From Ferrovum sp. (GTDB lineage: Bacteria; Pseudomonadota; Gammaproteobacteria; Burkholderiales; Ferrovaceae): 33,613 nt of DNA. This document shows positions 2,616 through 7,635 of the stretch, piece after piece. Within the stretch, counting starts at the first letter, position 1, and the number at the start of each line of letters is the position of its first letter. The stretch covers positions 1 to 33,613 of the forward strand of contig JAAGNR010000094.1 in the NCBI GenBank assembly GCA_010435995.1, given 5' to 3'. The position numbers and the translations under genes were made by a program. Under the pieces are notes generated by a model. That model saw only the letters and a program-made list of their open reading frames with translations, ran no database searches and was not told the DNA's origin.

Positions 2616-3806
2616 TTATTGCATCACGCGAACTTTCTTCTCTTCGCGCACAACATAGTTGACTTCCACATGGCGGTTCTGAGCACGACCTTCCACGGTT
2701 TTGTTGGAAGCCACAGGGTTTTCCATGCCGTAACCCTTGGTATGAACACGATCTGCCGCCACACCATGCTTGACCAAGTATGCTTTGACCGCATCAGCAC
2801 GACGTTGGGACAGTTTCAAATTGTAAGCCTTGGAGCCAGTGCTATCGGTGTAACCAGAGACTTGAACATCGGCTTCAGGATACTGCTTCGAAAAGTCCAC
2901 AACTTGTGTCAGCTTTTCGTCAGATGTTTTGTTCAACACGGCCGAATTGGTTTTGAAGTTGGCACCGTCGAGATGAACAGGCTTCTCTTCGGTAATCATG
3001 CGCCATCTGTCCACGGGAGCAGGAGCAGGTGCGGGTTCAGCAGCAACCGGAGCAGCAACCGGAGCAGGTGCTGGAGCAGCAGCAACATGGTGAGGCTTGG
3101 CAGCACTGAAGTAATAGTTGACACCCACGGTGTAGGTATTATTGTTCAGGGTATTGTTGTTATTGGAGGCGGACATGTTGTTCCACTCACCAGCAACACT
3201 CCAATGAGGAGCAAACAGGTACTCTAAACCCAATCCGCCATTTATGCCATTTGCAGCAAAGCCATTCGCCGCACCCGTACCCGTCAGGCGACCATAGCCC
3301 AACTTGGCGTAGGGCATCAGCGTGTCACTGACGGGAATCCCGAACTTCAGTCCCAGGGCGTAGTCATGGCTACCATAGGTAGGAATGCCGGAACTGCTGT
3401 TCGCCAACGAACCATAACGGCCAGTTCCATTGTAGTTGTAGGTGGCGTCCAGACCCAGAACTGTGGAGCCCAGCTTCCAGGCGTAGCCTGCTTCTGCGCC
3501 AACATCTGCACCATAGTTTTGCTGATAGTTTCCTGCAGTTCCGCCTGGAGCAGTAGTGTTGCCAACCTGCATTTTGGAATCATTGATACCCGTCTTCAAG
3601 CCAACGTAGGCGCCAGTAAAGGGGCCATTCGAGCCATCATCCAGAAAATTGTCTACATCCTTGACCACATCTTTGGCGCCATTGTCGATGGTGGAACCGA
3701 CGGCTTTGGCATCGGACTCGGCCGACGAAACGATACCATCAGCAAATGCTGACCCAACAGGAAGGCCCATCAGGGCAAGTATCAACAGTTTCTTTTGGAA
3801 TTTCAT
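2616..3806 (-). CDS. ompA: OmpA-family outer membrane protein
   Basis: A 396-residue outer membrane porin/anchor. Residues 1-22 are a signal peptide (Lys-rich start, hydrophobic core, AFA cleavage site). A short acidic segment follows, then a beta-barrel of about residues 60-232 with alternating aromatic strands (ending VGVNYYF). A Pro/Ala linker (PAPAPVAAP-type) comes next, and then the OmpA peptidoglycan-binding domain with the typical GYTDSTGS, NLKLSQRRADAVKAYL and RAQNRHVEV motifs. In the family the barrel sits in the outer membrane and the C-terminal domain binds diaminopimelate in peptidoglycan. The gene stands alone, followed by two hairpins, as expected for a highly expressed monocistronic gene. 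The start ATG has GGAGAG upstream. Several Asn runs near the last loops look like low-complexity extracellular loops. Confidence 0.93.
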   Translation of the reverse strand: MKFQKKLLILALMGLPVGSAFADGIVSSAESDAKAVGSTIDNGAKDVVKDVDNFLDDGSNGPFTGAYVGLKTGINDSKMQVGNTTAPGGTAGNYQQNYGADVGAEAGYAWKLGSTVLGLDATYNYNGTGRYGSLANSSSGIPTYGSHDYALGLKFGIPVSDTLMPYAKLGYGRLTGTGAANGFAANGINGGLGLEYLFAPHWSVAGEWNNMSASNNNNTLNNNTYTVGVNYYFSAAKPHHVAAAPAPAPVAAPVAAEPAPAPAPVDRWRMITEEKPVHLDGANFKTNSAVLNKTSDEKLTQVVDFSKQYPEADVQVSGYTDSTGSKAYNLKLSQRRADAVKAYLVKHGVAADRVHTKGYGMENPVASNKTVEGRAQNRHVEVNYVVREEKKVRVMQ

Positions 3807-3958
3807 GAGGAACGCTCTCCGATTGTAAAGTGCATATCAATAGTTCTTTTGCTGGTGTGATTGGCGAACTCGGGTTACATCGAAATCTCTCACCCACCAG
3901 ATTGTTGCATCTTAAGGTAAAACTCTAACTATGTCAGCAATATTTCCCTACAACTCCA

Positions 3959-3982
3959 TATTGTTGCAAATTTACAACAATA
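3959..3982. promoter_or_regulatory. 24-bp imperfect palindrome, candidate operator
   Basis: The arms TATTGTTG (3959-3966) and CAACAATA (3975-3982) are perfect inverted repeats. The 8-base centre is itself symmetric except for one position. It lies between the divergent ompA (minus) and tRNA-Arg (plus) genes. The half-site ATTGTTGCA recurs at 3901-3909, closer to ompA. This layout suits a dimeric repressor or activator site, but I cannot name the regulator. Confidence 0.4.
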
Positions 3983-3995
3983 GACGTCAAATCGG

Positions 3996-4021
3996 TTGCG
4001 AGCATGGAATAGTGATAAAAT
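3996..4021 (+). promoter_or_regulatory. Candidate promoter of tRNA-Arg
   Basis: An extended -10, TGATAAAAT, ends at 4021, thirteen bases before the tRNA. A weak -35-like TTGCGA lies at 3996-4001, only 14 bases upstream. The extended -10 (TGn) could compensate for the poor -35 spacing. Transcription would begin near 4028. Confidence 0.45.
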
Positions 4022-4033
4022 GTTCAGCCACGT

Positions 4034-4328
4034 GTCCCCGTAGTTAAATGGATATAACGGCCCCCTCCTAAAATTTGGGCACCCGTCATCGAAAGGGACG
4101 GCGTGAATGCATTCAAATTCGGTGAAACCCCTGTTGCAGAACGAGGCAATACCGAGCAAAGTCCCAGTATGGTTTGGGAAATGTGTAGAGACTTGACGGA
4201 TGCGGCCTACGACCTCCACGGAGATCATGGCCAAGGGAAAGTCCAGACCACGAACGAAATTTTTCGGCGGCGAAAGTCGAAGTGGGATGAAGGGGCAGTT
4301 ACAGGTTCGATTCCCGTCGGGGGCACCA
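4034..4328 (+). tRNA. tRNA-Arg (anticodon CCU), split by a group I intron
   Basis: The exons are 4034-4069 and 4290-4328. Joined, they give a 75-nt tRNA with acceptor strands GTCCCCG/CGGGGGC (one T-G pair), discriminator A and encoded CCA. The D stem is GTTA/TAAC, the anticodon stem GCCCC/GGGGC and the anticodon loop CTCCTAA, so the anticodon is CCT. The sequence closely resembles bacterial tRNA-Arg(CCU), which reads AGG. The intron follows the last anticodon base (position 36). The T stem ACAGG/CCCGT contains one A-C mismatch, which is unusual. Group I introns at this site are known from some alphaproteobacterial tRNA-Arg(CCU) genes such as that of Agrobacterium. Confidence 0.95.
4070..4289 (+). 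ncRNA. Group I self-splicing intron in tRNA-Arg(CCU)
   Basis: This 220-nt intervening sequence has all four conserved group I elements in order: P (AAATTCGGTGAAACC, 4115-4129), Q (GCAATACCGAGCAAAG, 4146-4161), R (GTGTAGAGACTTGACGG, 4183-4199) and S (AAGGGAAAGTCCAGA, 4233-4247). P4 can form from TTCGGT/ACCGAG, P7 from GACT/AGTC, and P3 from GCAT (4109-4112)/ATGC (4200-4203). The internal guide GGG (4077-4079) can pair with the anticodon CCU, putting a U-G wobble at the 5' splice site. The intron ends in G (4289), the omega-G. Length and core resemble the small IC3-type introns of bacterial tRNAs, such as the Azoarcus tRNA-Ile intron. There is no internal ORF, hence no homing endonuclease. Confidence 0.93.
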
Positions 4329-4332
4329 TCCA

Positions 4333-4360
4333 TTGTTGGCGTGATACTTTGGTGTAAAAT
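4333..4360 (+). promoter_or_regulatory. Candidate sigma-70 promoter for the DUF1178 gene
   Basis: TTGTTG (4333-4338) and TAAAAT (4355-4360) are separated by 16 bases. They sit between the tRNA-Arg 3' end and the downstream gene, whose start has AAGGAG upstream. The match is moderate. Confidence 0.4.
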
Positions 4361-4445
4361 ACTCGGATCTGAACACAATTGAGTACAACAAGAGGGGTGC
4401 CATGCAAACCGTTTTTCTTGGTACATCTTAAGGAGCGGTAGAGTC

Positions 4446-4955
4446 ATGGTACGTTACACACTCAAATGCTCATTGGGTCATGGATTTGAAGGCTGGTTTT
4501 CCTCGCCAGAAAGTTTTGATGCCCAAAAACGCGACGAATGGATTGCTTGCCCCTATTGTCATTCGACTCAAGTGGTGGGCAGCATTCCAGAACCCACCGA
4601 CATTTCCCAAGAAGCCTCCATTTCAATGGAGGGGCAAAGCATTATTGCCAATTTCCCATCCGCTATCCAGACGCTCGGGGAAGTGGGCGAAGCTCTTGCA
4701 TTGGCCTTGGCAAACCCACCGTCCGACAACGCAAGCCCTGCCGTACTGATTGCGAGCGCTCAATCACTGAACCTGTTACAGATCAAATTGATTCAATCGG
4801 TTTTAGGTGGCCTGGTCTCGCAGAACAAGACGGAAGATGGAACACCTGCTTTACCTTTGGTGGTCGTTGTACATGCCGCCCCCCTGGCGGAAGAAGAGGG
4901 CGACAGAAACGGCCTCATTCATCCGGAAGAAGGCCCTTCAGGCTACTTTCACTGA
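4446..4955 (+). CDS. DUF1178 family protein
   Basis: A 169-residue protein whose N-terminus (RYTLKCSLGHGFEGWF, then SFDAQ and ACPYCHS) matches the DUF1178 family as I remember it. The function is unknown. Cys8, His12 and the Cys35-x-x-Cys38 pair form a likely zinc-ribbon-like site. The rest is helical and acidic near the end, with no signal peptide or membrane segment. An AAGGAG ribosome site lies 11 bases before the ATG. The gene is alone on the plus strand and converges with gspF, whose stop is seven bases away with no hairpin between them. Confidence 0.8.
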   Translation: MVRYTLKCSLGHGFEGWFSSPESFDAQKRDEWIACPYCHSTQVVGSIPEPTDISQEASISMEGQSIIANFPSAIQTLGEVGEALALALANPPSDNASPAVLIASAQSLNLLQIKLIQSVLGGLVSQNKTEDGTPALPLVVVVHAAPLAEEEGDRNGLIHPEEGPSGYFH

Positions 4956-6174: not shown

Positions 6175-7635
6175 TCAACCATCTCCCGTCACACGCAACA
6201 ATTCTTCCAGGGTAGTCTGTCCCTGCTCTACCCAGCGATCCCCATCTTGACGCAGAAAACGCATGCCCTGAGCCACAGCCTGATCCTTCAAGGCAGATTC
6301 CGCTGCCTGCGCATGAATCAATTGCTGTAATGGCTCAGTCACTTCGAGCAACTCATAAATCCCCATACGCCCCTGATAGCCACTTTTACCACAGGTTTCG
6401 CACTCTGCAGCATGCTCGGGACCCCCGCATACGGCACAGCAACGCCGAACCAAACGCTGACCCAATACTCCCAGTAATGAACTGGACAACAGGTAAGGTT
6501 CAATCCCCATGTCGAGCAAGCGCGTCACCGCACTGACGGCATCATTGGTATGCAGGGTAGCCAACACCAAATGTCCGGTCAGGCTCGCCTGAACCGCAAT
6601 TTGAGCGGTTTCGCCATCGCGGATTTCGCCGATCATGATGACATCAGGATCCTGACGCAAAATGGAGCGCAGCGCACGAGCAAAGGTAAGGTCAATACGA
6701 GCATTGACAGGTGTCTGTCCAATGCCATCCAGGTGATACTCGATGGGGTCCTCGACCGTCAATATGTTGGTAGTTTGACGATCCAGACGTAGCAGCGTGG
6801 CATACAGCGTAGTGCTTTTCCCGCTCCCAGTAGGACCGGTCACCAGCACGATTCCATGGGGACGATGTACCAGACGATCAAAACGAACCAAGGTATCTGG
6901 TGCCATCCCCAATCGACTCAAGTCAAGCCGTCCCAGATCCTTTTCCAGCAAACGCAATACCGCACGCTCCCCATGGCCCGTGGGCAGGGTGGAAACACGC
7001 ACATCCACCGCACGCCCCGCCACTTTAAGGGCAATTCTTCCATCCTGGGGCAAACGTTTTTCCGCAATGTCTAATTGCGCCATGATCTTGAGGCGAGAGA
7101 TCAAAGCAGCATGTAGTGCCCTTTTGAGTTGAACCACTTCGCGCAAGGTTCCGTCCACCCGAAAACGCACCTGACATTCCCGTTCTGCCGCCTCGATATG
7201 GATATCAGAAGCTCCTTCACGCGCCGCTTGTGCCAGCAAGGCATTGAGCATACGAATGATAGGAGCGTCATCCTTGGCTTCGAGCAAATCCTCCACCTCG
7301 GGCAAGTCCTGTAACAAGCGGGAAAGATCCGTCTCATCTTCCACTTCCCCTGCCACCAATGCCACCTCTCCCTGCTGGGCATGGTAGGCTGTAGCCCAAG
7401 CCTGCTGCCACGATTCGGTCTCCAGCATCACCCAGTGAATGGCGCCAAAACGCCGTCCCACCTCGGTCAATCCAGACCTGCAGGTATCTTTATGAATCCA
7501 TACCTCCGTCACCCCACCGTGTTGCCCTGCCACCAGAATGCCCTGGTCGCGTGCAAAAGCAAAGGGCAGGAGTCGCCCAGCCCCCCGTGTCCGCGGGGGG
7601 GGGTCTACCTGTTCTGGCGCTGAGGTCGCGTTCAT
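6175..7635 (-). CDS. gspE: Type II secretion ATPase GspE
   Basis: The hexameric ATPase that powers pseudopilus assembly. I start it at ATG 7635 (486 aa), which overlaps the gspD stop in an ATGA. The longer open frame upstream lies inside gspD and is not GspE-like. Motifs are the Asp box ASDIHIE (142-148), Walker A GPTGSGKST (267-275), Walker B DVIMIGEIRD (331-340), the His box around GHLVLATLHT (354-363), and a zinc-binding Cys cluster (C399/C400, C403, C412, C415). The N-terminal GspL-binding domain looks short. A run of nine C residues on the coding strand encodes part of Pro12-Pro14, so slippage there would abolish the protein. Confidence 0.95.
   Translation of the reverse strand: MNATSAPEQVDPPPRTRGAGRLLPFAFARDQGILVAGQHGGVTEVWIHKDTCRSGLTEVGRRFGAIHWVMLETESWQQAWATAYHAQQGEVALVAGEVEDETDLSRLLQDLPEVEDLLEAKDDAPIIRMLNALLAQAAREGASDIHIEAAERECQVRFRVDGTLREVVQLKRALHAALISRLKIMAQLDIAEKRLPQDGRIALKVAGRAVDVRVSTLPTGHGERAVLRLLEKDLGRLDLSRLGMAPDTLVRFDRLVHRPHGIVLVTGPTGSGKSTTLYATLLRLDRQTTNILTVEDPIEYHLDGIGQTPVNARIDLTFARALRSILRQDPDVIMIGEIRDGETAQIAVQASLTGHLVLATLHTNDAVSAVTRLLDMGIEPYLLSSSLLGVLGQRLVRRCCAVCGGPEHAAECETCGKSGYQGRMGIYELLEVTEPLQQLIHAQAAESALKDQAVAQGMRFLRQDGDRWVEQGQTTLEELLRVTGDG
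7595..7603. repeat. Nine-base G/C homopolymer in gspE
   Basis: Nine consecutive G on the plus strand (C on the coding strand), about 11 codons after the gspE start. A one-base slip would frameshift nearly the whole protein. Confidence 0.9.

Follow-up and report, generated by a model that had tools for sequence, protein, structure and literature searches.

The window, the whole stretch of 33,613 nucleotides of Ferrovum DNA analysed here, contains a tRNA-Arg(CCU) gene that is split in its anticodon loop. In intron mode ARAGORN placed the gene at exactly 4034-4328 on the plus strand, with a 220-nt intron between tRNA positions 36 and 37, so that the split tRNA described in the earlier note holds to the base in coordinates and length. 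The 5' exon (4034-4069) comprises the acceptor strand, the D arm, the 5' strand of the anticodon stem and the loop through U36, and ends in CTCCT. The intron follows at 4070-4289, and the 3' exon (4290-4328) includes the encoded CCA. Joined, the exons gave a complete folded 75-nt tRNA in ARAGORN. The default mode of ARAGORN passed over tRNA-Arg(CCU) and reported only two tRNA-Ser genes, at the window ends. The two exons abut without a gap in the intronless locus L016, and the intron was identified by ARAGORN, RF00028 and R2 matches with its ends set by intronless alleles. ARAGORN and these alleles both make the G at 4289 the final intron base, which is the 3' omega-G proposed earlier. A count of terminal G over the extracted introns is not independent because the extraction script demanded a final G.

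The gene lies between an OmpA-family protein gene (2616-3806, minus strand) and a DUF1178 protein gene (4446-4955, plus strand), the latter followed by type II secretion genes. A promoter and terminator scan of 3807-4446 gave nothing above shuffles. A homing endonuclease inside the intron was considered and rejected; two of six frames are open over all 73 codons, yet the intron is too small to encode one. The tRNA-Arg(CCU) gene is single copy, with one matching place in its own genome (1.85 Mb, 87% complete). This genome also encodes tRNA-Arg(UCU), which could read AGG by wobble should splicing fail. The T stem of the tRNA has an A.C mismatch. The identical mismatch is found in intronless L016 and is therefore no sign of decay.

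A group I core of P3-P4-P5-P6-P7-P8 with a P3/P7 pseudoknot was present in the intron, as evidenced by covariation and the R2 match. All elements lie on the plus strand. The internal guide GGG (4077-4079) faces the anticodon CCU through one U.G and two C-G pairs (P1), as the earlier note had it, and all but one of 32 Arg(CCU) introns have GGG. The U at the 5' splice site (4069) is paired to G4077 of the guide, as is characteristic of group I introns. The T's directly 5' of the guide could pair with AA of the 3' exon as a putative P10. The P2 hairpin (4080-4105) has a GAAA loop at 4091-4094. P3 is formed by GCATTC (4109-4114) and GGATGC (4198-4203), and P4 by TCGGTG (element P, 4119-4124) and element Q (4150-4155). 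P7, the guanosine-binding helix, is formed by GACTT (element R, 4190-4194) and AAGTC (element S, 4239-4243). The P8 hairpin (4204-4232) pairs GGCC (4204-4207) with GGCC (4229-4232). In the P9 domain (4248-4285), CCAC (4248-4251) pairs with GTGG (4282-4285) around a GAAA-loop helix. The order of P, Q, R and S and the P3, P4 and P7 pairings read from the sequence were all borne out by the full-length RF00028 match and by covariation. No P5(a-d)-type extension was seen within the 220-nt intron; according to PMC11835236, subgroup IC3 lacks P5(a-d). A reference title in PMC3984707 assigns the pre-tRNA introns of Azoarcus and Synechococcus to IC3. The folding energy of the intron was unremarkable (z -0.93, matched by 32 of 200 shuffles) and is uninformative as a test.

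For covariation a structure of P3, P4, P5, P6, P6a, P7 and P8 was named from the window sequence and the cores of 52 Pseudomonadota tRNA introns were aligned. Standard pairs made up 98.6% of 1560 cells and 20 of the 30 pairs changed on both sides. P3, P7 and P8 were paired in 100% of cells (two-sided changes at 5/6, 3/5 and 3/4 pairs, respectively) and P4 in 99.4% (2/6 pairs). Two-sided changes were observed in 262 cells compared to 75.5 in shuffles. When the partners were slid by 1-3 columns as a control only 31-44% of cells were paired. The number of further pair types, one of five covariation measures, showed no excess (45 compared to 43.9 in shuffles). The structure was extended to P2 and P9 in the 23 betaproteobacterial Arg(CCU) introns, where 96.9% of 1053 cells were paired and 23 of 46 pairs changed on both sides. 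Both P9 helices were 100% paired in these introns, with two-sided changes at 0 pairs of the outer helix and 4/4 of the inner. P2 as a whole was paired in 82.7% of cells; its inner pairs hold in part of the 23 rows and are the weak part of the extended structure.

The Rfam model Intron_gpI (RF00028) matched the window at 4046-4266 along its whole length (model 1-253, 34.9 bits, E 2.2e-7), and this was its only match in the genome at E 0.001. The covariance-model check proposed in the earlier note thus returned a match with RF00028, as it did with R2 below, although the RF00028 score is lower than the gathering score of 50. The intron does not reach the curated Rfam cut-off and a gathering-level scan of the window gave no RF00028 match. 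Among 300 sampled genomes of the order 32 had an RF00028 match and 9 were above the gathering cut-off, which indicates a strict threshold rather than a feature missing in the window intron. At E 0.001 RF00028 matched 5 of the 32 Ferrovaceae genomes and recovered just 2 of the 14 Ferrovaceae Arg introns, so a model of our own, R1, was built as a counter. R1 found all 14 Arg introns, three Ile introns and one more in Ferrovaceae. Since its training rows include seven Ferrovaceae and six Alcaligenaceae Arg introns, R2 was built without them. R2 is made from 36 introns, none of them a Ferrovaceae or Alcaligenaceae Arg intron, and carries P7 but not P3. The 52 introns of set A2 were chosen from 78 extracted, set A4 is 36 of those 52 and set A3 is 100 chosen loci. 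R2 matched the window at 4109-4246 (110.1 bits, E 3.8e-28) and nowhere else in it, and none of the intronless loci L016, L017 and L018 gave a match. Chance or artefact as the source of the intron signal is ruled out by the match to this clade-free model together with the covariation. As both ARAGORN without the intron option and Rfam at gathering level miss the gene, the genome could be listed as one without tRNA-Arg(CCU).

Ferrovum is an iron-oxidising genus. The window genome belongs to a Ferrovum-type betaproteobacterium, and its order is taken to be the Burkholderiales of GTDB. The tRNA-Arg(CCU) intron was present in 14 of 32 Ferrovaceae genomes, an intronless gene in 10 (G004, G023, G027, G025, G012, G017, G026, G029, G021 and G009), and a complete gene was not found in eight (G001, G006, G010, G013, G018, G022, G030 and G016). 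G001, of the same genus and rated 100% complete, gave one match, which was tRNA-Arg(UCU). G016 holds a lone tRNA-Arg(CCU) 5' half (L249) which ends in the anticodon loop with CCTCCTAA. The same-genus genome G003 has a homologous gene at 7087-7385 of a 12,013-base contig, and the homologous gene of Ferrovum myxofaciens P3G (NZ_JPOQ01000128.1) matches that of G003 in position and gene start. The 13 other intron-bearing Ferrovaceae genes were 78-87% identical to the window gene over the whole length. Identity was 97-100% in the 5' exon and 87-97% in the 3' exon compared to 67-80% in the intron. In intronless G004, of the same genus, the two tRNA halves are joined exactly. Its upstream flank is common to the intron-bearing loci L001, L002, L004 and L005 (L003 gave no match) and its downstream flank to L005. 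Both flanks of intronless G023 and G027 are common to intron-bearing relatives. No relative matched the downstream flank of the window itself in this comparison. Exact intronless alleles share the locus with intron-bearing ones, so that at this one place the intron is either present or precisely absent. The bin G011 has, in addition to its Arg intron, a tRNA-Leu(UAA)-type intron (L159) at a contig end (C135, 48-188), which may be contamination.

Taken from sequence comparison, the window intron is predicted to be a functional group I ribozyme which removes itself from the tRNA-Arg(CCU) precursor, with a probability of about 0.9. Free guanosine would bind P7 (4190-4194 with 4239-4243) and attack after U36, which would be held by its U.G pair to the guide GGG in P1. 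The freed CCU-OH would then attack the junction behind the omega-G (4289), where P10 would align the 3' exon. Once ligated, the exons would form an AGG-reading tRNA.

A pattern for the intron-bearing tRNA was run against 84,980 species and found 39 loci. Introns were present in 23 of these, 22 by ARAGORN plus L071, which was cut by the segment. Thirteen were assigned to Ferrovaceae, nine were from Alcaligenaceae (Candidimonas, Paenalcaligenes, Paralcaligenes, Mesopusillimonas and one without a genus name) and one from Sideroxydans. The other 16 loci start as tRNA-Arg(CCU) 5' halves and have no intron. Such 5' halves, with the same ending as L249, stand upstream of a complete copy in L036 (4055-4640), L035, L054 and L072 from Clostridia and in L070 from Gallionellaceae. 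Several lie in tandem beside a phage-integrase-family gene in L036. The 5' halves look like scars of integration at the anticodon loop that introns also use.

R1 found a core of this kind in 17 of the 32 Ferrovaceae genomes and, across the order, in 63 of 399 genomes sampled. Introns of this class had been described in the earlier note as known in just a few bacterial tRNAs, but by this count they are not rare in the order. The host sites in the order were Leu(UAA) and Ser(UGA) after U34, Leu(CAA) after C34, Asn(GUU) after U35, Ile(CAU), Thr(UGU) and Arg(CCU) after U36, and Ile(CAU) after U33. Arg(UCU) introns were found at two positions outside the order. Host sites were taken from ARAGORN and the exon sequences, and several wrong ARAGORN names were corrected from the exons. 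In the Leu(CAA) introns L164, L171 and L184 the 5' exon ends in C, so that the splice-site U.G pair would be C-G. The Ile(CAU) introns after U33 stand before the anticodon and not at the Azoarcus site (L091, L095, L096, L099, L100, L101, L174, L175, L180, L181 and others). Twelve of 13 Ile(CAU)-33 introns formed one clade in the 100-intron tree (98/91) and L182 was placed elsewhere. The tRNA-Thr(UGU) genes with an intron after U36 included L032 (1823-2150), on a plasmid of the alphaproteobacterium Tritonibacter mobilis, and L079 and L158 from the order of the window.

Part of the window gene was matched by 1258 plasmid records, mostly from Enterobacteriaceae, of which L031 and L032 were inspected. 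L031 (1890-2186, CP041648.1) is an intron-bearing tRNA-Leu(UAA) on a Klebsiella plasmid, about 0.65 kb from two ORFs matching aminoglycoside 3-N-acetyltransferase. Its intron groups with L118, from outside the class of the window (97/86, 77-intron tree), which is a possible clue to the origin of that plasmid stretch.

The guide was compared to the host tRNA in 94 introns, a count which leaves out the Ile-33, Asn and Arg(UCU) introns. By a simple rule the guide triplet pairs with the 5' exon end in 81 of 94; 1000 shuffles of the exons gave 48 on average and at most 59. In a further 11 the fitting triplet was plain by eye and the rule took a neighbouring one; neither applied for two (L032 and L115). 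The guide GAG was found in the Leu(UAA) introns (32 by rule and 8 by eye, of 41) and GUG in the Ile(CAU)-36 introns (10 by rule and 2 by eye, of 12). The exception among the Leu(UAA) introns is L088, which is not close to the Arg clade and whose guide GGG matches CUU by way of two wobble pairs. This GGG can pair with both CUU and CCU, which would show that such a double fit is tolerated in a guide. Leu intron L081 has the guide context TTTGAGCACC, one letter apart from the TTTGGGCACC of the window.

Three trees were constructed, all of them unrooted and so giving no direction between Leu-to-Arg and Arg-to-Leu. The first comprised 77 introns and 195 columns with the guide excluded. The second used a model-based structural alignment of 100 introns and 135 columns. 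The third was a pruned tree from the structural alignment with nine long or unknown rows out (L182, L057, L167, L032, L109, L178, L126, L088 and L159). L097 (446 nt, odd boundaries) was dropped from the 77-intron tree, and L042 is absent there and included in the structural alignment and guide count. The duplicates L076 and L090 were left out, as were L073, L102 and L116, around which no tRNA was found.

In the 77-intron tree the 22 Ferrovaceae and Alcaligenaceae Arg introns formed a clade (99/88) adjoining the betaproteobacterial Leu(UAA) introns L015, L081 and L087 (100/98). L104-L107 and L124, which are Arg(CCU) introns of genomes outside the class, were placed elsewhere across a weak split (12/79). 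The database gives these as the same phylum outside the class, and they are inferred to be alphaproteobacterial. The Sideroxydans intron L057 fell beside the Ile/Thr group (92/94). The Arg clade was recovered again in the 100-intron tree, with 23 rows (98/97). A split at 91/99 puts it together with most of the betaproteobacterial Leu introns; these Leu neighbours were not a supported sister group of the clade. On the other side were most introns from outside the class, along with the Ile(CAU)-33 and Thr introns and two Leu introns of betaproteobacteria. L162 and L178, Arg introns of the order, were without placement in this tree. In the pruned tree the Arg introns and L015, L081, L087 and L169 formed a group at 94/91, not starred. 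The earlier note had likened the core to the Azoarcus type. On two of the three trees the nearest introns were instead betaproteobacterial Leu(UAA) introns and not Ile(CAU) introns, although an Ile grouping was not rejected in an AU test (p 0.128).

The Ferrovaceae and Alcaligenaceae clade was probably derived from a tRNA-Leu(UAA) intron whose guide changed from GAG to GGG and which moved to the Arg(CCU) loop, then to be inherited and precisely lost in some lines. An origin of these introns separate from that of the alphaproteobacterial-type Arg introns is favoured, though unproven. The trees favour transfer between tRNA sites, the question raised in the earlier note, but with 134-195 aligned columns they do not decide it.

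A single colonisation of the Arg(CCU) site is a rather unlikely alternative. Here the beta and alpha-type introns would descend from one ancestor at that site by same-site transfer, with no change of tRNA. The tRNA, position and guide GGG are all identical in both groups, and in AU tests a joint clade of beta and alpha-type Arg introns was not rejected (p 0.0877; p 0.103 in the pruned structural alignment). The log-likelihood was nonetheless 31 and 23 units worse with both groups held together, and all 29 Arg rows as one clade gave a borderline p of 0.047. L104, L105, L107 and L124 also lie beyond the deepest split in both full trees, among mostly non-beta Leu and Ile(CAU)-33 introns (12/79 and 91/99), which speaks against one ancestor at the site.

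It is improbable that the window intron was derived from the tRNA-Ile(CAU) introns at the Azoarcus site. A position-36 Ile(CAU) intron does occur in the same family (L028, G021), and Arg and Ile(CAU)-36 introns held together gave the AU p of 0.128 noted above (pruned structural alignment). Against this, ten Ile(CAU)-36 introns formed a clade of their own (100/95 in the pruned tree; 97/96 with two added rows in the 100-intron tree); two others, L077 and L078, were elsewhere in the 77-intron tree and are outside the structural alignment. All Ferrovaceae introns as one clade were rejected (p 9.8e-5; p 2.8e-5 in the pruned structural alignment), and the Arg and Ile introns of the family are therefore not one local radiation. 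It is very improbable that the intron has decayed and no longer splices, leaving a dead tRNA gene and AGG to be read by tRNA-Arg(UCU): that tRNA is in the genome and loss of CCU need not be lethal, eight of 32 Ferrovaceae genomes yielded no complete tRNA-Arg(CCU) and the window T stem is mismatched, but the 13 relatives retain their exons better than the intron, the core pairs are maintained by compensating changes in the 23 betaproteobacterial Arg(CCU) introns, and intronless L016 shares the mismatch.

The derivation from a Leu(UAA) intron may be part of a broader pattern, to which we give even odds. In Betaproteobacteria one lineage of small anticodon-loop ribozymes would have come to occupy at least eight tRNA sites (Leu-UAA, Leu-CAA, Ser-UGA, Arg-CCU, Ile-CAU at two positions, Thr-UGU and Asn-GUU), switching host by one- or two-letter guide changes, and the window intron would be a Leu(UAA) intron retargeted by one A-to-G change. 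With the exact boundaries of a set of introns from several host tRNAs in hand, movement between tRNA sites becomes testable, a single guide letter being the candidate step.

A 1999 paper by Paquin, Heinfling and Shub, cited in PMC7717549, names horizontal transmission and transposition of the tRNA-Arg(CCU) intron in its title. No tRNA-Arg(CCU) intron of betaproteobacteria was found in searches of an open-access library, one of which was directed at Ferrovum and none at Alcaligenaceae by name, and no paper there was found with all of Ferrovum, intron and tRNA. Alphaproteobacterial tRNA-Arg(CCU) introns are published, and the Bartonella intron BbgpI is described in PMC7717549 as spliced in vivo and self-splicing in vitro. 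The kind is thus known and the Ferrovum example is new. Introns of tRNA-Ile2 are described for Acidovorax and Burkholderia in PMC8450103. The case for a change of host tRNA is well posed and unproven.

The alphaproteobacterial tRNA-Arg(CCU) introns (the Agrobacterium family and Bartonella BbgpI) share with the window intron the same tRNA and a guide against CCU. L104-L107 and L124, taken as the alphaproteobacterial kind, also share the insertion after U36 and a similar size. They differ in bacterial class, tRNA body and branch of the intron tree. The Azoarcus-type tRNA-Ile(CAU) introns share the order of bacteria, the core helices and position 36, but have the guide GUG against CAU and a clade of their own, compared to the host tRNA-Arg(CCU) and guide GGG of the window. 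The betaproteobacterial tRNA-Leu(UAA) introns L015, L081 and L087 lie after U34 of tRNA-Leu and have the guide GAG rather than GGG. Their core and guide region are closely similar to those of the window intron, to which they are the nearest introns on two of the three trees.
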